From the NCBI GenBank assembly GCA_945786965.1, contig CALZFZ010000143.1, positions 1 to 40,889 on the forward strand: a stretch of 40,889 bases of DNA, read 5' to 3'. The position numbers and the translations under genes were made by a program. This document shows positions 22,972-32,721 of this stretch, piece after piece. The notes beneath the pieces were generated by a model. The model was not told where the DNA came from. It searched no databases and saw only the letters and a list, made by a program, of their open reading frames with translations. The number at the start of each line of letters is the position of its first letter. Position 1 is the stretch's first letter. Source of the stretch: an uncultured Muriicola sp. (lineage in GTDB: Bacteria > Bacteroidota > Bacteroidia > Flavobacteriales > Flavobacteriaceae).

Positions 22972-24201
22972 ATGAAAAATAAAACCGCCCTCTTTCTTTC
23001 TTGTATACTCCTTAGTTTCCTTTCCTGTAACGAGGAAGACAATAGCAAGTATGCAGACTACCTGGTAGCTCGACCCTTAACGATGACCAAAGCCGAATTT
23101 AAGAACAGTGTTGATATTATTGCTCCCATCCCTATTAAAGAATCGGGTAAAATATATGCCTACGAAAATTATATTTTCGTGAACGACAAATTCAAAGGTG
23201 TTCATGTCATTGACAATAGCAACCCTGCTTCACCTCAGAAAATATCATTTATTAAAATTGCGGGGAACGTTGATATATCCGTAAAGAACAATTATCTCTA
23301 TGCCGACAGTATTACAGATTTGGTGGTTCTTGACATTTCTGACATCAACAATATTCAAATTGTAAACCGCCTCGAAAATGTATTGAGGGATAATGTTGTA
23401 TGGCCGGCAGAGGCCGATTTTTTTGAATATGAGGAGTGGGACTATGAAAATGAGATCCTGGTTGGATGGGAAGTGGTTACCGAAAGAAGACTTATTGAAG
23501 AGGTAGAGCAGCGCTTTGTAGATATTTTATTTGCAGATGCAGCGGAGAATAGCGTAGGACAGGGGGGGTCATTGGCCCGATTTAAAATTGTGAATGATTT
23601 TCTGTATGCTGTTGATAGCCATTCCATTAATATTTTCGATATCACGGATCTCGCCAATCCACAAGATCTGGAAGATGTGTATGCTGGATTCGACATTGAA
23701 ACTATTTTTAACCGAGATAATCATTTGTTTTTAGGCAGTATGAGGGGAATGTATATCTATGATATCTCATCACCTGCCAACCCAACATTTGTTTCTGAGT
23801 TTCAGCATGGAACGGCCTGCGACCCGGTAGTTGTTGATGGGGATTATGCTTTTGTAACCCTTAGAGGGGGCAATAATTGTGGTGCTACAGAAAGCGGCTT
23901 GTTTATCGTAGATATTTCCAATATTACCAATCCCAGTTTAACATCGTCGTATCCTATGGAAGAACCCTATGGCCTGGGTGTAAAAAATGAAAAATTATTT
24001 GTGTGTGATGGCAGTGCCGGACTAAAGGTTTATGATAAAACCAATGTAGAAGATCTGGTTGAATTACAACACTTTGAGGATATTGTTACTTTCGATGTTA
24101 TTCCCCTTGAAAATAATCTTCTAATGGTGGGAGATGGGGTCCTGTATCAGTATGAATATGAGAACACTAACATCCGCTTAATAAGCTCCATTTCGCTCTA
24201 G
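22972..24201 (+). CDS. LVIVD-repeat beta-propeller lipoprotein
   Basis: The 409-residue product starts with a lipoprotein signal (lipobox SFLSC, C19). It is built of LVIVD-type repeats of about 40 residues, each with a core such as VHVIDNSNPASPQKIS, LVVLDISDINNIQIV, INIFDITDLANPQDL, MYIYDISSPANPTFV and LFIVDISNITNPSLT, ending with LKVYDKTNVEDLVEL. Six visible repeat cores suggest a beta-propeller at the cell surface or in the periplasm. An insertion of about 55 residues (roughly 135-195, acidic, with EYEEWDYENEILVGWEVV) breaks the spacing between repeats two and three. The role is unknown; such proteins are thought to bind proteins or glycans. It stands alone between a divergent miaB operon and topA and is followed by a terminator. 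Confidence 0.82.
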   Translation: MKNKTALFLSCILLSFLSCNEEDNSKYADYLVARPLTMTKAEFKNSVDIIAPIPIKESGKIYAYENYIFVNDKFKGVHVIDNSNPASPQKISFIKIAGNVDISVKNNYLYADSITDLVVLDISDINNIQIVNRLENVLRDNVVWPAEADFFEYEEWDYENEILVGWEVVTERRLIEEVEQRFVDILFADAAENSVGQGGSLARFKIVNDFLYAVDSHSINIFDITDLANPQDLEDVYAGFDIETIFNRDNHLFLGSMRGMYIYDISSPANPTFVSEFQHGTACDPVVVDGDYAFVTLRGGNNCGATESGLFIVDISNITNPSLTSSYPMEEPYGLGVKNEKLFVCDGSAGLKVYDKTNVEDLVELQHFEDIVTFDVIPLENNLLMVGDGVLYQYEYENTNIRLISSISL

Positions 24202-24323: not shown

Positions 24324-26792
24324 ATGGCTAAAAATTTAGTAATTGTAGAGTCGCCAGCAAAGGCAAAAACGATCGAGAAATTTTTAGGTAAGGATTTTAA
24401 GGTTGAGTCTAGCTTTGGACATATAGCCGATCTTCCTTCCAAGGAATTAGGAGTGGATGTCGACAATGATTTCCAACCCAAATATATTGTTGCTAAAGAT
24501 AAAAAAGCCCTTGTTAAAAAACTCAAGGATCTGTCCAAAAAAGCAGATATGATATGGTTGGCTAGTGATGAGGACCGAGAAGGGGAGGCTATATCCTGGC
24601 ATTTGGCAGAGACACTTAAACTGGATAAGAACAAGACTAAACGAATCGTTTTTAATTCCATCACCAAATCGGCTATTCAGAAGGCTATTGAGAATCCGAG
24701 AAGCATCAATTATGACCTGGTGAATGCCCAACAGGCACGTAGGGTATTAGACAGATTGGTTGGGTATGAGTTATCGCCTGTTCTTTGGAAAAAAATAAAA
24801 CCGGGCCTTTCTGCAGGAAGGGTTCAATCCGTAGCGGTTCGCCTTATCGTGGAAAGGGAACGAGCAATAGAAGAATTTAAGCCGGTTGCTACCTTTAGGA
24901 TCTCAGCGGAATTTAAAACTGTGAATGAAGGGGTATTTAGTGCAAAGCTTAATAAGACCTTTGATACAAAACAAGAGGCAGAAAACTTTTTAAAGCAAAA
25001 CGTTAAGGCCCAATTCTCGGTAGCTTCCCTGGATAAGAAACCCGCTAAGAAATCTCCTGCCGCCCCGTTTACAACTTCTACCCTGCAGCAAGAAGCCTCC
25101 AGAAAATTATATTTTTCGGTGGCAAGGACCATGCAGGTGGCCCAGCGTCTTTACGAGGCCGGGTTAATTACCTATATGAGAACAGATAGTGTAAACCTTT
25201 CAAAAGAGGCTTTGAACGAGGCAAAACAAACTATCATTATTAATTACGGAGAATCTTACAGCAAAGTTCGAAATTATAAGGGCAAGTCTAAAGGCGCACA
25301 GGAAGCGCATGAAGCTATCCGCCCTACCGATATGGGACTCCAATCGCCGAATGTAGAGCGAGATCAGGCTAAATTATATGAATTGATATGGAAGCGTACC
25401 CTGGCCTCCCAAATGGCCGATGCACAGCTGGAGCGTACCAACGTAAAGATCAAAGCTGATAAACATAAGGAAGAATTTACGGCCAACGGGGAAGTAATTA
25501 AATTTGATGGTTTCCTTAAGGTATACCTGGAAGGAAAAGATGAAGAAGACCTTTCTGAAGAACAGGAAGGGATGCTTCCATCCATGAAACTCAATGAGGA
25601 ATTGTACAATAAGTATATCACGGCCACCGAACGATTTACAAGACCACCTTATAGATATACAGAAGCTACCCTCGTGAAAAAATTGGAGGAACTGGGAATA
25701 GGAAGACCGTCTACCTATGCCCCAACTATTTCCACCATCCAAAATAGGGGTTATGTTGAAAAAGGAACTGTTGAGGGAATCGAAAGATCCTACAGCCAGC
25801 TGCTATTGGAGGGCGATACAATTCAGGAAAAAAAATTATCTGAAACAATAGGTTCCGATAAAGGGAAAATGGTGCCGACGGACATAGGACTCATTGTAAA
25901 TGACTTTTTGGTAAACCATTTTGCGAATATTCTCGATTATAATTTTACGGCCAAGGTCGAAAAAGATTTTGATGAGATAGCTTCGGGGGAAGAAGATTGG
26001 CAGAAGGTAATGAAGGATTTTTACAAAGACTTTCACCCCAATGTTGTCGATGTAGAGGAGAATGCAGAACGCGCGAGCGGAGAACGGGTGCTTGGAACCG
26101 ATCCAAAAACCGGAAGACAGGTCTCTGTGCGCCTGGGCCGCTTTGGCCCAATGGTCCAGATAGGTACGGTAGAAGAGGAAGAGAAACCTTTATTTGCGAG
26201 CCTTTTACCAGACCAGTCCATTGCAACGGTTACCTTTGAGGAGGTAATGGAACTTTTTAAGCTTCCTAGAAAACTGGGGGTTTATGAAGGAGAAGATGTA
26301 GAGGCCAATGTTGGCCGTTATGGACCCTATATACGTTTTGGAAAGAAATTTGTTTCCCTCGAAAAAGGGGAAAGTGCCCTGGATATAGATATGGAACGGG
26401 CTATGGAATTGATAAAAGCTAAACAAAAAGCCGATGCTCCTATCGCTACCTACGAGGGAAAAGAGGTGACAAAAGGCACGGGTCGTTTTGGTCCTTTTAT
26501 AAAATGGGACGGCATGTTCATCAATGTCAATAAAAAATATGATTTTGATGATCTTTCCAAGGACGATATTGAAGAACTGATCGAGGCTAAGAAGAAAAAG
26601 GAATCCGAACGGGTCGTGAAAGAATGGTCAGAGGAGGGGATACGGATAGAAAAAGCCCGTTGGGGCAGGCACCATATTATCAAAGGTAAGACCAAGGTAG
26701 AAATAGGGAAGGAAGTAGACGTTACTGCTTATAGCCTGGAAGATGCCAAAAGTCTTTTGGAAAAGAAAAAACCGAAGAAAAAAACGAAATAA
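24324..26792 (+). CDS. topA: DNA topoisomerase I (type IA), cysteine-free C-terminal repeat form
   Basis: TopA relaxes negative supercoils by transient single-strand breakage. The TOPRIM domain shows E9 in VIVESPAKAKTI and the acidic motif SDEDREGE (81-88). The catalytic tyrosine is Y284 in GLITYMRTDS. The 822-residue length is near normal, but the C-terminus has no zinc-finger cysteines; the whole protein contains no Cys. Instead there are four short C-terminal repeats: GRFGP (605-609), GRYGP (664-668), GRFGP (720-724) and ARWGR (778-782). They end in a lysine-rich tail (KKKPKKKTK). This zinc-free form is common in Bacteroidota. The next gene begins 20 nt downstream in the same direction. 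Confidence 0.96.
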   Translation: MAKNLVIVESPAKAKTIEKFLGKDFKVESSFGHIADLPSKELGVDVDNDFQPKYIVAKDKKALVKKLKDLSKKADMIWLASDEDREGEAISWHLAETLKLDKNKTKRIVFNSITKSAIQKAIENPRSINYDLVNAQQARRVLDRLVGYELSPVLWKKIKPGLSAGRVQSVAVRLIVERERAIEEFKPVATFRISAEFKTVNEGVFSAKLNKTFDTKQEAENFLKQNVKAQFSVASLDKKPAKKSPAAPFTTSTLQQEASRKLYFSVARTMQVAQRLYEAGLITYMRTDSVNLSKEALNEAKQTIIINYGESYSKVRNYKGKSKGAQEAHEAIRPTDMGLQSPNVERDQAKLYELIWKRTLASQMADAQLERTNVKIKADKHKEEFTANGEVIKFDGFLKVYLEGKDEEDLSEEQEGMLPSMKLNEELYNKYITATERFTRPPYRYTEATLVKKLEELGIGRPSTYAPTISTIQNRGYVEKGTVEGIERSYSQLLLEGDTIQEKKLSETIGSDKGKMVPTDIGLIVNDFLVNHFANILDYNFTAKVEKDFDEIASGEEDWQKVMKDFYKDFHPNVVDVEENAERASGERVLGTDPKTGRQVSVRLGRFGPMVQIGTVEEEEKPLFASLLPDQSIATVTFEEVMELFKLPRKLGVYEGEDVEANVGRYGPYIRFGKKFVSLEKGESALDIDMERAMELIKAKQKADAPIATYEGKEVTKGTGRFGPFIKWDGMFINVNKKYDFDDLSKDDIEELIEAKKKKESERVVKEWSEEGIRIEKARWGRHHIIKGKTKVEIGKEVDVTAYSLEDAKSLLEKKKPKKKTK

Positions 26793-26812: not shown

Positions 26813-27970
26813 ATGGCATTCGATTTTTTAGTACCGGTAGAGGACAGGGCCCTGGCTCATTGTGAGCTCCTTCCTCCGCAGTCACTTGGCAAGAATATTT
26901 TTAAACACACCAGCCGGGATGGACTTCCCGTATTGGCCAATGCTTCTTTCGCATTGATGGGCGTGAACGAGTCCAGGAATGCCTTCGAAAAAAAACCAGA
27001 GAAATTAGCCATTGCAGAGATCAGGATTCAGCTTTATAAACTGATGATGGGCAACTGGAATGTGAACATCGTAGACCTTGGGAATGTAGAAGAGGGAGAA
27101 TCCGTAGAAGACACCTATTTTGTAGTAAAAGAAATCGTAGCTGGTTTATTGGAGGAAAATGTTATACCTATTATTATAGGAGCAACTCAGGATATTACCT
27201 ACCCAACATACAGGGCTTTCGATAAACTTAAGAACATGATCAACCTGGTGTCTGTAGACAGCAAGTTCGATTTTGGTGCCGATGAGGAATTGATCTCATC
27301 CAATTCCTATATGAGTAAGATCATTACGGACAAACCTAACAACCTTTTTAATTTCTCCAATATTGGCTATCAGAGTTACTTCAATGCCCAGGAAGAGATA
27401 GATCTGATGGAGCGCCTCTTCTTTGATGCCTATCGTCTTGGGGAAATTGCGTCTGATATTTCCCTGGCAGAACCCGTATTGCGTAATGCCCATATTGTTA
27501 GTCTCGATGCCCGTGCTGTCAGAGCAAGTGAAATGGGGATGTCCTATAATTTTTCGCCCAATGGATTTAGCGGCAGAGAAATATGTGCCATAGCACGCTA
27601 TGCTGGCATTAGCGAGAATGTTTCCGTTTTTGGTATTTACGAAAGCGAGAATACCCCGCAGTCCTTTCAACTGATGGCCCAGATTATATGGTACTTTATG
27701 GAAGGGTTTAATTTTAGGATCAAAGAACGTCCAAGTGCTACCAGCAAAGATTTTACCAAGTTCATCGTTCCAACCGATACCGAAGAACTGGTTTTCTTCA
27801 AAAGCAACCTCACACTGCGATGGTGGGTAGAAGTCCCACCTTTTATGACTTCACATACTAAAACAAATTCACATGCGTTATTACCTTGCACTGAGCAGGA
27901 CTATTTAGATGCATGTGATCAAATTATTCCTGAAAGGTGGTTTAAGGCCTATAAGAAGGGTTTTAACTAA
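26813..27970 (+). CDS. Arginase/formimidoylglutamase-fold protein with degenerate metal site
   Basis: The 385-residue protein has the ureohydrolase fold, and relatives are often labelled formimidoylglutamase. The strands around the metal site align, yet key ligands are replaced. The usual GGDHS motif reads GATQD (123-127, His replaced by Q126). DAHxD reads D149-S-K151-F-D153 (His replaced by Lys). SxDxDxxDP reads SLDARAV (230-236, D232 kept, second Asp replaced by R234). Three of six manganese ligands are thus lost, so hydrolysis of guanidino compounds is unlikely. There is no signal peptide. It lies 20 nt after topA and 117 nt before gldK on the same strand. A structural or regulatory role near the gliding/T9SS genes is conceivable but unproven; no other histidine-degradation gene is nearby. 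Confidence 0.85.
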   Translation: MAFDFLVPVEDRALAHCELLPPQSLGKNIFKHTSRDGLPVLANASFALMGVNESRNAFEKKPEKLAIAEIRIQLYKLMMGNWNVNIVDLGNVEEGESVEDTYFVVKEIVAGLLEENVIPIIIGATQDITYPTYRAFDKLKNMINLVSVDSKFDFGADEELISSNSYMSKIITDKPNNLFNFSNIGYQSYFNAQEEIDLMERLFFDAYRLGEIASDISLAEPVLRNAHIVSLDARAVRASEMGMSYNFSPNGFSGREICAIARYAGISENVSVFGIYESENTPQSFQLMAQIIWYFMEGFNFRIKERPSATSKDFTKFIVPTDTEELVFFKSNLTLRWWVEVPPFMTSHTKTNSHALLPCTEQDYLDACDQIIPERWFKAYKKGFN

Positions 27971-28087
27971 ACACAAATTTTTTTATAAGGAAGACCAGTT
28001 ATATACAATAATTTATTCAAAAAGTAGTTTTAGAGAATAATAATTGTCATTACTGTTTAAAGTCTAAATCGAAATTTAACCTAAAGT

Positions 28088-29443
28088 ATGAAGAAGCTAT
28101 TGTTGTTATCTATAGCGTTTGTTTTTTTACTCACAAGTTGTGGATCAAAAACAAAAGGAGAACTAGTTGGGGTCCAAGGTAAGAAATGGCACCCCGAAAA
28201 ACCATATGGAATGGAGCTTATCCCAAGAGGAGCATTTATCATGGGTAAGAGCGAAGAAGATATGGCTCAAGTTCTCAACGCACCAACAAAAACTGTAACT
28301 GTCCGTTCTTTCTATATGGATGATACAGAAATTACTAACAGTGAATATCGCCAGTTTGTTCAATGGGTAAGAGATTCTATTGTTAGAACCAACCTTGCTA
28401 TTCTTGCAGATGAGTTGGGATTGGTTCCTGAAGATGGAGGAATTGGAGAATTTGCTTTTAAGAGCGCCGATACTACCAGAATGTCCGAATATGACAAATA
28501 TATGATGGATAATTATTCAGGAATGGGTGAAACCGGATATGAGGGATATGCACTCAATATAGAAGAAGATCTAATTTGGGACACTTCAGATTACCCAGAC
28601 GAGTATTATACTGAGGTAATGGATTCATTATATATTCCGGAAGAGGAGTCGTATAATGGGCAACGCATTATTGATGTAACCAAATTAAAGTACAAGTATA
28701 CCTGGATGGATATTGAAGAAGCAGCCAGATCCAGGGATACAAGACGTAAGGAGTTTATTAAAACTGAAGAACTAGAGATCTATCCGGATACTACCGTTTG
28801 GATCCGTGATTTCGAATATTCATATAATGAACCCATGCATAATGATTACTTCTGGCACGATGCCTATAGTGACTACCCTGTAGTAGGTATTTCCTGGAAA
28901 CAGGCCAAAGCATTTTGCCATTGGAGAACAAAATTTAAGAATGACGATCAAAAAAGCAGAGGCCAGCAGTTCGTAAACCAATTCCGTTTACCTACGGAAG
29001 CAGAATGGGAATATGCAGCTCGTGGAGGTATTGAAGGAGGTACTTATCCATGGGGAGGGCCTTATGTGATCAGTGATACCGGTTGCTTTATGGCAAACTT
29101 TAAACCACAACGGGGAGATTATGCAGCCGATGCTGCCCTCTATACGGTGGAAGCAAAGTCGTATGAACCGAATGATTTCAACCTGTATAATATGGCGGGG
29201 AACGTTTCCGAGTGGACCAACAGTAGTTATTTCCCCGGATCCTATGAGTATGCTTCTACCATGAATCCAAATGCAGATTCTGGAGAAAATGCCAGAAAGG
29301 TCATACGAGGAGGTTCCTGGAAAGATGTTGCCTACTTCCTGCAAGTAAGTACCCGGGATTATGAGTACAGAGATTCTGCCCGTAGTTACATAGGGTTCAG
29401 AACTGTACAGGATTATATGGGAGAAGAAGATTCAACACAATAA
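28088..29443 (+). CDS. gldK: Gliding motility / T9SS ring lipoprotein GldK
   Basis: GldK (PorK in Porphyromonas) forms, with GldN, the periplasmic ring attached to the outer membrane that is part of the type IX secretion machine. The 451-residue protein has a lipoprotein signal (lipobox LLTSC, C18) and a formylglycine-generating-enzyme (sulfatase-modifying) fold. Its signatures are MELIPRGAFIMG (about 42-53), TEITNSEYRQF (about 80-90), RLPTEAEWEYAARGG and the C-terminal GNVSEWTNS and RKVIRGGSWKD. Between the first two and the latter ones is an insertion (about 105-240) typical of GldK. It is the first of gldK-gldL-gldM-gldN; the 117-nt gap upstream holds only a partial box (TAGTTTTA). Confidence 0.96.
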   Translation: MKKLLLLSIAFVFLLTSCGSKTKGELVGVQGKKWHPEKPYGMELIPRGAFIMGKSEEDMAQVLNAPTKTVTVRSFYMDDTEITNSEYRQFVQWVRDSIVRTNLAILADELGLVPEDGGIGEFAFKSADTTRMSEYDKYMMDNYSGMGETGYEGYALNIEEDLIWDTSDYPDEYYTEVMDSLYIPEEESYNGQRIIDVTKLKYKYTWMDIEEAARSRDTRRKEFIKTEELEIYPDTTVWIRDFEYSYNEPMHNDYFWHDAYSDYPVVGISWKQAKAFCHWRTKFKNDDQKSRGQQFVNQFRLPTEAEWEYAARGGIEGGTYPWGGPYVISDTGCFMANFKPQRGDYAADAALYTVEAKSYEPNDFNLYNMAGNVSEWTNSSYFPGSYEYASTMNPNADSGENARKVIRGGSWKDVAYFLQVSTRDYEYRDSARSYIGFRTVQDYMGEEDSTQ

Positions 29444-29519: not shown

Positions 29520-30170
29520 ATGGCACAGTCAAAATCAACAAAAAAACTATTTAACATGGCCTACGGGCTCGGGGCGTCAGTGGTTATCATTGGTGCGTTA
29601 TTTAAAATCCTTCACTGGGAATTTGGTCCGCTAACAGGTGGATTATTATTGGCAGTAGGTCTTATTACAGAGGCCCTTATTTTCGCCATCAGTGCATTTG
29701 AACCAGTAGACGACGAGTACGATTGGTCTTTGGTATACCCAGAATTATCTGGAGGTCAGTCCATGGGCAAGAACGCTGTGAAAGAAGCGAAAGAAGCCGA
29801 AGGATTATTATCTAAAAAATTAGATCAATTATTAAAAGAAGCAAACATCGATGTTGAATTGATGAACAGCTTAGGGGATAGCATCCGTAATTTTGAAGGT
29901 GCTGCCAAAGGAATTGCTCCTTCTGTAGATGCTATTGAGTCTACTAAGAAGTATTCTGATGAAATGTCCCAAGCTGCCTCTCAAATGGAATCTTTGAACA
30001 GCTTGTATAAAGTACAATTAGATAGTGCCAGCAGACAGGCTTCCATAAATGAGGAAGTTGTTCAGAATGCCGGTGCCCTAAAAGATCAAATGGAATCTTT
30101 AGCCTCTAACCTTTCTTCATTGAATGGTGTTTACGGTGGCATGTTATCTGCAATGAGTCCTAAAAACTAA
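29520..30170 (+). CDS. gldL: Gliding motility / T9SS inner-membrane motor protein GldL
   Basis: GldL and GldM form the proton-driven rotary motor that powers gliding and T9SS export. The 216-residue protein has two N-terminal membrane helices (about 14-31 and 38-58). The second helix carries E51 in LITEALIFAISAFEP, which corresponds to the glutamate shown in Flavobacterium johnsoniae (Glu49) to be needed for proton use. The H/W-containing loop KILHWEFGP joins the helices. The remaining 150 residues are cytoplasmic and largely coiled coil (about 75-210). The length matches F. johnsoniae GldL. It lies 76 nt after gldK and 55 nt before gldM. Confidence 0.96.
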   Translation: MAQSKSTKKLFNMAYGLGASVVIIGALFKILHWEFGPLTGGLLLAVGLITEALIFAISAFEPVDDEYDWSLVYPELSGGQSMGKNAVKEAKEAEGLLSKKLDQLLKEANIDVELMNSLGDSIRNFEGAAKGIAPSVDAIESTKKYSDEMSQAASQMESLNSLYKVQLDSASRQASINEEVVQNAGALKDQMESLASNLSSLNGVYGGMLSAMSPKN

Positions 30171-30225: not shown

Positions 30226-31794
30226 ATGGCATCAGGAAACGCAACACCACGTCAGAAGATGATCAACTTAATGTATTTGATCTTTATCGCAATGCTGGCG
30301 TTGAATATGAGTAAAGAAGTTTTAGCGGCTTTCGGTCTTATGAACGAAAAGTTCGAAGCTTCTAACGCAAAAACCACGGAAAGCAATGTAGCTTTTCTTA
30401 GTGGACTAGAAACCAAAGCATCGGAAAATGAGGAAAAATTTGGACCTCTTTATAAAGATGCAGTGAAGATCAAAGAGTTGTCTACAGAGTATTTCAATTA
30501 TATTGAAGACATTAAGACCTCTATGACCAAGGAATTGGATGATCCAAAAGACTACGTGGTCATGGATAAAGCCGATTATCTGGATCAGAAATTCTTTCAG
30601 GGCGACAATCTTGCTCCGGAAGGAAAGGAATTCTTGAAAAGGATTGAGGATTATAAAACTCAGATTACCGCTCTTTTACCGGCAAACTTTACCGAAGTAC
30701 GCAGTGCTGTAGCTGCCAGATTTCAAACTGGTGACGAAAACGGGAAGGTAGAACGTAGAGACGGTGTAAAAGTAGATTGGATCAATTATCATTATGAAGG
30801 ATATCCTTTAGTGGCCTCTTTGGCCAACCTAAGTAAAATGCAATCTGATATTAAGTCTACTGAAGAAGATGCCTTAAAGGCGATGTTACAGGGACAGTTA
30901 ACCTCAGAAGTATCTATGACAAACTATACCACTTTGTTGGAGCAGGAGAAATCTGCGTTCTATACAGGTGAGAAATTTGTAGGATCTGTCGTATTAGGTC
31001 GTAAAGATGCTACTACAAAGCCAAATGAGGTAAATCTTAAGGTCGATGGCAGAACTTTGGTAGAAGGGAAGGATTATGAGATCATTGAAGGTCAGGTAAA
31101 GCTATTGATTAGCGCCGGTGCCCCAGGTGATCATAAGATTGAAGGTAACCTGGTATTTATTCAGGATGGTGAACGTACGGAAGTACCTGTTTCGTCTACC
31201 TTCGCAACCATTACCAAGCCTAATGCGGCCGTAATTTCTGCCGATAAAATGAATGTGGTATATCGTGGGGTAGCAAACCCTATGACCATTTCCATTCCAG
31301 GTATTCCTGATAATAAGGTTTCTGCAAGTGCCAGCGGACTTAAAAGAGTTAGTGGTAGTAAATATATCATGAACCCAAGAAAAGGCAGGGAAGTAACCAT
31401 CAATGCCTCTGGTATATTGCCAGATGGTAAGAGGATTTCCACTCCTGCAACCTTCAGAATTAAGGATATCCCAAGACCGGCAGGTTCGGTTCGTGGGGAA
31501 GCGGGAAGCGCCAAAATGACAAGAAGGAATTTGGATATCTCTACAGTTGGCGCCTTATTAGAAGATTTTGATTTTGATTTGAATCTTGCTGTAAGCGGAT
31601 TTAAATTTAAAGTACCAGGGCAGCCTACCGTTAGTGTGAATGGTAATAAATTGGATTCACGCGCAAAATCGGCCCTTAAAAGAGCTAAAAGAGGCGATGC
31701 CGTCCAAGTCTTTGATATCAATGCGTATATCACGAATAACAAGACTTATAAACTTAAGAAAGTGTCTCCGGTTATTATAGAGATCACAAACTAA
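30226..31794 (+). CDS. gldM: Gliding motility / T9SS motor stalk protein GldM
   Basis: GldM is the periplasmic stalk of the GldLM motor. Its single helix sits inside the GldL pentamer, and its four periplasmic domains reach the GldKN ring. The 522-residue protein starts with MASGNATPRQKMINLMYLIF, giving the conserved membrane helix (about 12-33) with NLMYLIFIAMLALNMSKEVL. A helical domain D1 follows (about 40-220) and then three beta-rich domains, with strands such as AFYTGEKFVGSVVLGRKD and PAGSVRGEAGSAKMTRRNL and the terminal KKVSPVIIEIT. Length and order match the family. It lies between gldL and gldN in the usual order. Confidence 0.96.
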   Translation: MASGNATPRQKMINLMYLIFIAMLALNMSKEVLAAFGLMNEKFEASNAKTTESNVAFLSGLETKASENEEKFGPLYKDAVKIKELSTEYFNYIEDIKTSMTKELDDPKDYVVMDKADYLDQKFFQGDNLAPEGKEFLKRIEDYKTQITALLPANFTEVRSAVAARFQTGDENGKVERRDGVKVDWINYHYEGYPLVASLANLSKMQSDIKSTEEDALKAMLQGQLTSEVSMTNYTTLLEQEKSAFYTGEKFVGSVVLGRKDATTKPNEVNLKVDGRTLVEGKDYEIIEGQVKLLISAGAPGDHKIEGNLVFIQDGERTEVPVSSTFATITKPNAAVISADKMNVVYRGVANPMTISIPGIPDNKVSASASGLKRVSGSKYIMNPRKGREVTINASGILPDGKRISTPATFRIKDIPRPAGSVRGEAGSAKMTRRNLDISTVGALLEDFDFDLNLAVSGFKFKVPGQPTVSVNGNKLDSRAKSALKRAKRGDAVQVFDINAYITNNKTYKLKKVSPVIIEITN

Positions 31795-31818
31795 GAATAG
31801 ACAGTAAAATTGAATTTT

Positions 31819-32721
31819 ATGAATTGGAAGAATGTTTTAATTGTTGGAGCCGTTTCTTTGCTGCCAATGTCTATCATGGCTCAGGCTAATATCCTGAACG
31901 CCAAGAAACCTGAGGAAATCGGGATAAAGACACAGAATCAATTAGCAATGGACGACGATGTTCCTTTAGATTATGGATACGTGGACGACAGAGACATCCT
32001 TTGGTCAAAGACCATATGGGAAGTTATTGACCTGGACGAACGTGTGAACTTTCCACTTTACTATCCAACAGATACAATCGATATTGGTGCCGACAGGAGA
32101 TCCCTTTACGATGTTTTTCTTAAAAACATTAAAAATGGGAAACTGAAGGATGTCTATGTAGATTCGTATTTTACGGAAAGAAGAAAGTTCGAAGATCTAG
32201 CGGCCACCCTAAAAAAGGTAGATACAACAGATCTTGGATACGAACAAATCAATGCCGGGGAACAACTCTCTCAGGAATATGTAAATGAAAGAGAGCTTTC
32301 TGCGGCGGATATTGAAGAATATCGTATCAAAGGTATTTGGTATTTTGACAAGCGCCAGGGAGAGCTTAAGTATCGCCTTCTGGGAATCGCACCCGTTGCG
32401 CCAGACGTTAACTTTATCGATGACGAATCTATGGATCCGGCAGATAATAAAGTAGAGTTGTTCTGGGTTTGGTTTCCAAGTGCCCGAAAAATTCTGCATG
32501 ACGCTAAGGTTTTTAACCAGCGAAATTCAGCGCAACCTATTACGTATGATATGTTATTGAATGCACGTAGGTTTAACGGAAACATCTATAGAGAGGACAA
32601 CGTTCACGGAGACCGCGAAATAGATGATTACATTGCAGATAATGCCTTGTTTCAACTCCTGGAGTCGAATCGTATTAAAGAAGCGATCCGCGACAGGGAG
32701 CAAGACATGTGGGCCTATTAA
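31819..32721 (+). CDS. gldN: Gliding motility / T9SS ring protein GldN
   Basis: GldN (PorN) binds GldK to build the periplasmic ring of the type IX secretion system. I choose the ATG at 31819 (300 residues) over an in-frame TTG nine bases earlier, because it gives a clean Sec signal peptide (MNWKNVLIVGAVSLLPMSIMA, cleavage near AQA). Family features include the early block DDRDILWSKTIWEVIDLDERVNFP, the repeated acidic segments, ELFWVWFPSARKIL, and the C-terminal end RIKEAIRDREQDMWAY. It starts 24 nt after gldM. A strong terminator closes the gld operon 36 nt after the stop. Confidence 0.95.
   Translation: MNWKNVLIVGAVSLLPMSIMAQANILNAKKPEEIGIKTQNQLAMDDDVPLDYGYVDDRDILWSKTIWEVIDLDERVNFPLYYPTDTIDIGADRRSLYDVFLKNIKNGKLKDVYVDSYFTERRKFEDLAATLKKVDTTDLGYEQINAGEQLSQEYVNERELSAADIEEYRIKGIWYFDKRQGELKYRLLGIAPVAPDVNFIDDESMDPADNKVELFWVWFPSARKILHDAKVFNQRNSAQPITYDMLLNARRFNGNIYREDNVHGDREIDDYIADNALFQLLESNRIKEAIRDREQDMWAY

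Follow-up and report, generated by a model that had tools for sequence, protein, structure and literature searches.

The gene between topA and gldK in the window (the whole 40,889-nt stretch of DNA analysed) appears to encode a ureohydrolase that has lost half of its metal site and been put to another use. We give the name ARGL to the family of this ORF, 26813-27970. The reading we prefer, to which we assign a probability a little over one half (about 0.55), is that ARGL is a repurposed pseudo-ureohydrolase that acts by binding a ligand or a partner, is expressed with topA, and has gldKLMN downstream through inherited gene order. An ancestral ureohydrolase would have shed the pair of residues that holds metal B, and two-metal hydrolysis of urea or formamide bonds would have gone with them. 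The protein would be cytosolic, no signal peptide being discernible by eye; a ligand or partner protein would bind the surface made by Q187, E220, R224, G251 and W293 together with a C-terminal extension (RWW, C359, Y364); what is left of the acid pocket may be, depending on lineage, a ligand site or a one-metal site; and expression would be from the topA unit. Half of the metal site is lost, yet nearly all relatives keep the gene, which suggests that ARGL probably has another job, inside the cell and not in secretion.

The ORF is real and intact, and lies on the + strand with the neighbours and residues listed in Table 1. The window's miaB also scores above its cut-off. Between miaB and topA, at 22972-24201, lies a gene for an LVIVD-repeat protein; in many deeper loci the stretch from the miaB-like gene to topA has no intervening ORF of at least 90 aa.

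Table 1. Positions in the window of ARGL, its neighbours and selected codons (counts for metal-ligand codons are out of the 264 ARGLs outside families f2 and f5, the others out of all 272)
Feature	Position	Strand	Evidence or conservation
topA, ending 20 nt upstream of ARGL	24324..26792	+	above NCBIfam cut-off
ARGL, putative pseudo-ureohydrolase, 385 aa, ATG start	26813..27970	+	ORF, Pfam, model, fold search, tree
Q126 codon, replaces His of metal site A	27188..27190	+	Q 236, H 25, N 3 of 264
D149 codon, bridging Asp	27257..27259	+	kept 263/264
K151 codon, replaces His of metal site B	27263..27265	+	His kept 6/264
D153 codon, site A Asp	27269..27271	+	D 252, N 12 of 264
Q187 codon	27371..27373	+	invariant 272/272
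D232 codon, bridging Asp	27506..27508	+	kept 263/264
R234 codon, replaces Asp of metal site B	27512..27514	+	Asp kept 1/264
G251 codon	27563..27565	+	invariant 272/272
W293 codon	27689..27691	+	invariant 272/272
C-terminal extension, residues 305-385, outside aligned arginase fold	27725..27967	+	fold alignment
gldK (T9SS ring lipoprotein), 117 nt downstream of ARGL	28088..29443	+	above NCBIfam cut-off
gldL	29520..30170	+	above NCBIfam cut-off
gldM	30226..31794	+	above NCBIfam cut-off
gldN	31810..32721	+	above NCBIfam cut-off

An earlier note on this DNA held that the protein keeps the ureohydrolase fold, and profile and model agree with it. The ORF matches the Pfam Arginase profile PF00491 at 35.5 bits (cut-off 22), and the same profile matches 34 of the 39 members of our alignment A2 at E up to 0.01. 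An AlphaFold2 model built with 48 close sequences (pLDDT 75.3, pTM 0.82) aligns in VIA-align with T. cruzi formiminoglutamase 4myn at Z 28.7 and rmsd 2.6 A over 262 residues. In Foldseek the top six matches to the model are metformin hydrolase chains, with the formimidoylglutamase of B. subtilis and the formiminoglutamase of T. cruzi coming next; a sequence-profile comparison ranks the formimidoylglutamase HutG 3m1r first among solved chains, at 65.0 bits, metformin hydrolase subunit B scoring 38.3. About 80 C-terminal residues extend beyond the aligned fold. They include RWW at 336-338, C359, D363 and Y364, W337 being invariant in 272 of 272 ARGLs. Modelled alone the extension gave pLDDT 70.7 and pTM 0.57; a Foldseek search with it returned nothing reaching E 0.001, the best VIA Z was 3.6, and weak rows to DNA-binding WGR domains carry no evidential weight. 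The lack of a clear relative for the modelled extension does not show that its fold is novel.

The metal-binding motifs are GATQD, DSKFD and SLDARAV, just as they had been read earlier. Aligned with two canonical members from the window's own genome, the six ligand columns read QDKDDR in the window against HDHDDD, so that exactly Q126, K151 and R234 are the replacements, for His, His and Asp, in agreement with the earlier reading. According to the available part of PMC10028609, in the arginase family the GGDHS His and the second DAHxD Asp hold metal A, the DAHxD His and the final Asp hold metal B, and the sites are bridged by two Asp. Taken with the counts in Table 1, this assignment, as far as that part of the source carries it, indicates that the pair for metal B is gone from ARGL and that the set for metal A remains, its His mostly turned to Gln. 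The counts were made on 272 distinct ARGLs after duplicates, other family rows and rows below 200 bits had been dropped; 264 belong to families other than the divergent f2 and f5, and the counts draw heavily on close relatives, 162 of these rows coming from, or from near, the window's family. Among the 264 the quartet Q/H126, D149, D153 and D232 is kept in 248, of which 23 have the original His126 with all three Asp; none has both metal B ligands and none has all six, which extends the three replacements far beyond the close relatives. Family-weighted frequencies are 0.80 for Q126, 0.97 for D149, 0.96 for D153 and 1.0 for D232. On a conservation ranking of the 385 positions, D149, D153 and D232 stand 69th, 72nd and 50th, against 322nd and 212th for the two lost positions. 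With three ligands replaced and the metal B pair gone family-wide, standard ureohydrolase catalysis would be doubtful for the family as it had seemed for the window's protein.

The two divergent families depart further. In f2 (L174-L176, three of three) all ligands are lost except an Asp at 234; Q187, G251, W293, W337 and C359 are kept, and topA adjoins ARGL in L175. In f5, three of five rows lack the greater part of the metal-binding half, and few ligands survive in the remaining two; short ARGLs of 277-335 aa are found at L195:3977-4807, L196:3677-4510 and L197:3554-4558.

Besides the residues that never vary (Table 1, and W337), E220, R224 and C359 are kept in 271 of 272, the sole exception being an f5 row. 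Invariance at these non-metal positions suggests a shared function seated in a second site and the extension, not in the metal pocket. Against our preferred reading, residues of the pocket-side loops show no significant excess of conservation over the other residues of the core (p 0.24), in a sample that leans on kin.

ARGL is close to universal in the lineage sampled. An orthologue is present in 59 of the 60 genomes of the window's family (f1), which we infer from the named loci to be Flavobacteriaceae, the sampled class being by the same token Bacteroidia. The one miss, G051, is 88% complete, with SprA found and no GldM match; given the missing GldM, the topA-gldKLMN stretch may be absent from its assembly. 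In a class sample of 326 genomes with a completeness of 90% or more, the class-wide alignment A2 is matched by 308, 304 of them at E below 1e-50 and four more weakly (G403, G431, G429, G594), these four being perhaps fragments or canonical paralogues. GldK passes its cut-off in 313 of the 326; with both genes so common, finding them together in this sample tells little. Among 296 genomes sampled across the phylum, GldK is over cut-off in 71 and alignment A1 is matched by 135; outside the class, among the A1 matches listed, all are weak (best E 3.0e-35), and seven out-of-class matches (L201-L207) keep five or six of the six ligands. A tree of 86 rows limited per family, made by a quick method, separates the 75 ARGL rows from 11 other family members by a branch with SH-aLRT 98; f5 has long branches, and 3 of the 11 non-ARGL rows have one ligand changed. 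ARGL has probably been inherited vertically. Searches of open-access full text, covering part of the literature, returned neither a class-wide clade with site-B-selective loss and an extension nor a described function for ARGL.

In three close pairs the dN/dS of ARGL is 0.031, 0.022 and 0.037 (Nei-Gojobori), that of topA 0.037, 0.027 and 0.018, and that of gldK 0.028, 0.025 and 0.009. Values this low mean that ARGL is not decaying, and in the pairs tested the constraint on it resembles that on topA; orthologues in 59 of 60 genomes at dN/dS 0.022-0.037 are more than chance would give. Of the nine genes compared, the one for the LVIVD-repeat protein has the highest value in one of the three pairs (0.074). 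One might go further and see in ARGL a class-specific core enzyme or sensor of ancient ureohydrolase descent, with metal B shed, a one-metal acid site in most lineages, a new C-terminal domain and an undescribed role in the cytosol coupled to topA expression, needed by most members with or without a T9SS; we put this forward as a tentative suggestion.

The surroundings of the gene were compared in 51 loci, many of them picked for looking linked. In 23, ARGL adjoins gldK or stands one gene away; the intervening gene belongs to the PorP/SprF cluster in 21 (one member scanned), and in the other two, from the window's family, gldK follows ARGL directly. topA lies directly upstream of ARGL in 21 of the 23, and 15 have a gene of the miaB cluster upstream of topA. 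With miaB, topA and T9SS genes in company, the block combines housekeeping genes with genes for secretion. Many families (L244-L262) have a PorP/SprF gene separating ARGL from gldK; the window's family lacks it (27970-28088).

Linkage was counted in the 85 genomes with both ARGL and gldK positions among the matches listed. ARGL is near gldK in all 12 from the window's family, in 57 of the 73 others and in 20 of 24 other families; the linkage to gldK thus reaches well past close relatives, and the outcome that the earlier note had named as refuting its idea, no such linkage beyond them, did not occur. ARGL is not near gldK in f3 (0/7), f4 (0/5), f57 (0/1) and f91 (0/1), nor in the loci drawn from f2, f8 and f9. 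From the breadth of the linkage, the order topA-ARGL-porP-gldKLMN is probably ancestral, porP having been lost in f1. Flanking genes in the unlinked families show no coherent theme; they presumably resemble peptidoglycan, thioredoxin-like and epimerase genes.

Spacing separates the two sides of the gene. Across 79 close relatives, topA and ARGL are separated by 2 nt at the median (range 0-239), ARGL and gldK at the same loci by 113-127 nt. Outside these relatives, where starts were guessed as the nearest Met, two more f1 loci have 70 and 146 nt between ARGL and gldK; in linked loci of other families ARGL and porP are 95-393 nt apart, and topA and ARGL less than 60 nt in 15 of 19; in the f2 locus L175 the topA-ARGL gap is 147 nt. 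topA is the tight partner of ARGL. The sequence TAnnTTTG, which we take to be a promoter motif, occurs in 5 of the 79 ARGL-gldK gaps and is absent from the window's.

Position before gldKLMN had suggested to the earlier note a non-catalytic role tied to gliding or type IX secretion. The genetic linkage behind this idea has proved wide; the role itself is weakened by what follows. On such a view ARGL would be a cytosolic T9SS or gliding accessory, a partner of the GldKLMN or PorP machine wherever that is present, and we consider it doubtful. The kept gene order is what would be expected of a T9SS helper, and so is the setting in three of five f5 loci, where a short ARGL lies tail to tail with murF and a gldJ-like gene (in L195, 355 bits and over cut-off for murF, 410.4 bits and below the cut-off of 458.2 for the gldJ-like gene); both observations count against our preferred reading. 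The short ARGL of f5 also lies beside an OmpA-family gene, families having been scanned in L195 only. Yet the linkage fails in f3 and f4, the gap on the porP or gldK side is 70-393 nt, in most measured loci 100 nt or above, whereas topA and ARGL are mostly near-contiguous, and miaB and topA, both part of the block, are not known as secretion genes.

Presence and absence bear on the question more directly. SprA and GldM were searched in 27 chosen genomes, not in all 326. Eighteen class genomes give no ARGL match, and in 12 of them both SprA and GldM pass their cut-offs, so the T9SS there does without a recognisable ARGL, which has been lost or has diverged beyond detection. Families with such T9SS-bearing genomes are f10, f96, f105, f11, f66 and f114. 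Seven class-sample genomes among the 27 lack both SprA and GldM: five of them, three from f11 and two small genomes, lack ARGL too, as a T9SS accessory would predict and our preferred reading would not, but two have it, G544 (99% complete) and G401 (95% complete, with ARGL near a contig end). The best GldK-family match in G544 reaches only E 4.5e-27.

The genus of G544, in family f3, is represented by 40 genomes. ARGL is found in all 40 at 468-508 bits, and is intact in the 29 from which SprA is absent. Four have no GldM match: G544, G643 and G664, with a completeness of 95% or higher, and G659, with 85%. In G633 a remnant of GldM is left, and in G665 the gene is split; each of these six genomes has an intact ARGL. 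GldM passes its cut-off in 35 of the 40, and 24 keep this motor protein without a recognisable SprA translocon. The median pN/pS of ARGL, from pairs uncorrected for distance or relatedness, is 0.194 in SprA-negative and 0.181 in SprA-positive pairs, and 0.206 in pairs of a GldM-negative with a GldM-positive member versus 0.187 in GldM-positive pairs. The slight rise with GldM loss goes a small way toward relaxation, against our preferred reading; the GldM losses may be recent. ARGL presence dissociates from the T9SS in both directions.

If catalysis survives in any form it would be in the remnant of site A. ARGL would then be a one-metal enzyme with new chemistry, its single metal held by D149, D153 and D232 with Q126 or His126, and this strikes us as quite unlikely. 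The quartet's retention in 248 of 264 ARGLs, the 23 that still combine the original His with all three Asp, and the high rank of the three Asp beside the lost positions all speak for it, and the kept quartet could indeed support such chemistry, to the detriment of a purely binding role. Against it, Gln is a poor ligand for Mn or Fe, and f2 (3/3) has lost all ligands except the Asp at 234, three of the five f5 rows most of the metal-binding half, both families keeping the second-site residues.

A binding partner of ARGL might be another ureohydrolase, ARGL serving as the non-catalytic subunit of a pair as MetCb does in metformin hydrolase, but we judge this highly improbable. The available part of PMC11271267 describes MetCb/MfmB as a pseudoenzyme subunit that has lost ligands and metal and binds a partner, and the MetCb-clade proteins in it lack three to five of the six ligands; the shared fold and ligand loss, and the six metformin hydrolase chains that head the Foldseek matches, make the resemblance. 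On that partial account MetCb pairs with an adjacent catalytic MetCa, whereas ARGL stands without such a neighbour, is at times found where canonical paralogues are missing and, unlike MetCb, loses site B selectively. In the 51 ARGL loci no second arginase-family ORF was found at E up to 0.001 with either of two profiles, A2 and one built from the 11 other family rows. Six of the 60 f1 genomes (G004, G015, G022, G043, G044, G055) have ARGL without a canonical-strength Arginase match, three of them being at least 93% complete; G055 has no PF00491 match, and G004, G043 and G055 were judged by weak or missing E-values. By sequence profile, moreover, HutG 3m1r is nearer than metformin hydrolase subunit B. 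An obligate pair with a canonical ureohydrolase is rejected on the loci without such a neighbour and the six genomes without a canonical paralogue.

Inactive relatives among the ureohydrolases are already known, as far as the partial sources go, in MetCb and in an arginase-like protein of Trypanosoma brucei. The latter, by the title of Hai et al. 2015, reportedly lacks the manganese cluster; compared by that title only, it is likewise without the binuclear cluster but is eukaryotic. In Zymomonas mobilis arginase the first His of GGDHS is replaced, as in ARGL, there by Cys, and the enzyme binds two metals and is active (PMC6988801, in the part available); it keeps both site B ligands, on that evidence, whereas ARGL is without the pair.

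The automatic name of the gene remains to be dealt with. The best NCBIfam match of the window ORF is hutG (TIGR01227), at 38.8 bits for a cut-off of 229.15; four ARGLs from other families score 45.2-95.8 bits with this profile, all under the cut-off, and that of L195 (f5) gives no match. On contig 79 of the window's genome hutH, hutI, hutU and hutG lie in a row (L142:3008-8879) at 601.4, 362.9, 422.1 and 288.6 bits, all above their NCBIfam cut-offs, this HutG being canonical; another canonical member lies on contig 74, with 175.9 bits as agmatinase against a cut-off of 174.3. The window gene is therefore a third paralogue, encoded apart from hutH, hutI and hutU, and the hutG name does not fit it. 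The earlier note had called the label formimidoylglutamase misleading, and rightly; its remark that histidine-catabolic genes are lacking holds for the window but not for the genome. With HutG (TIGR01227; PDB 3m1r, 4mxr) ARGL shares the ureohydrolase fold and its best profile and fold matches, the HutG-like rows being its neighbours in the tree, but it differs in three of the six ligands, in a score far under the cut-off, in its C-terminal extension and in sitting outside the hut operon. That ARGL should be a working formimidoylglutamase is scarcely credible, for all that hutG is its top NCBIfam match and that its six best VIA rows are T. cruzi formiminoglutamase structures: HutG identity is rejected on the low score, the missing ligands and the complete operon with a true HutG elsewhere in the genome. 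On its sequence features the hutG label is wrong.

A false hutG name lets histidine catabolism be read wrongly into genomes, and, given the dissociation of ARGL from the T9SS, its gldK neighbourhood alone should not be read as a secretion role either. The loss of metal B, the retention of the A acids and the wider loss in two lineages offer a natural series in which to study the change from enzyme to binding protein. A near-universal gene of its class, in the pairs tested under constraint like that on topA, and likely named formimidoylglutamase by automatic annotation, thus probably hides a core function.
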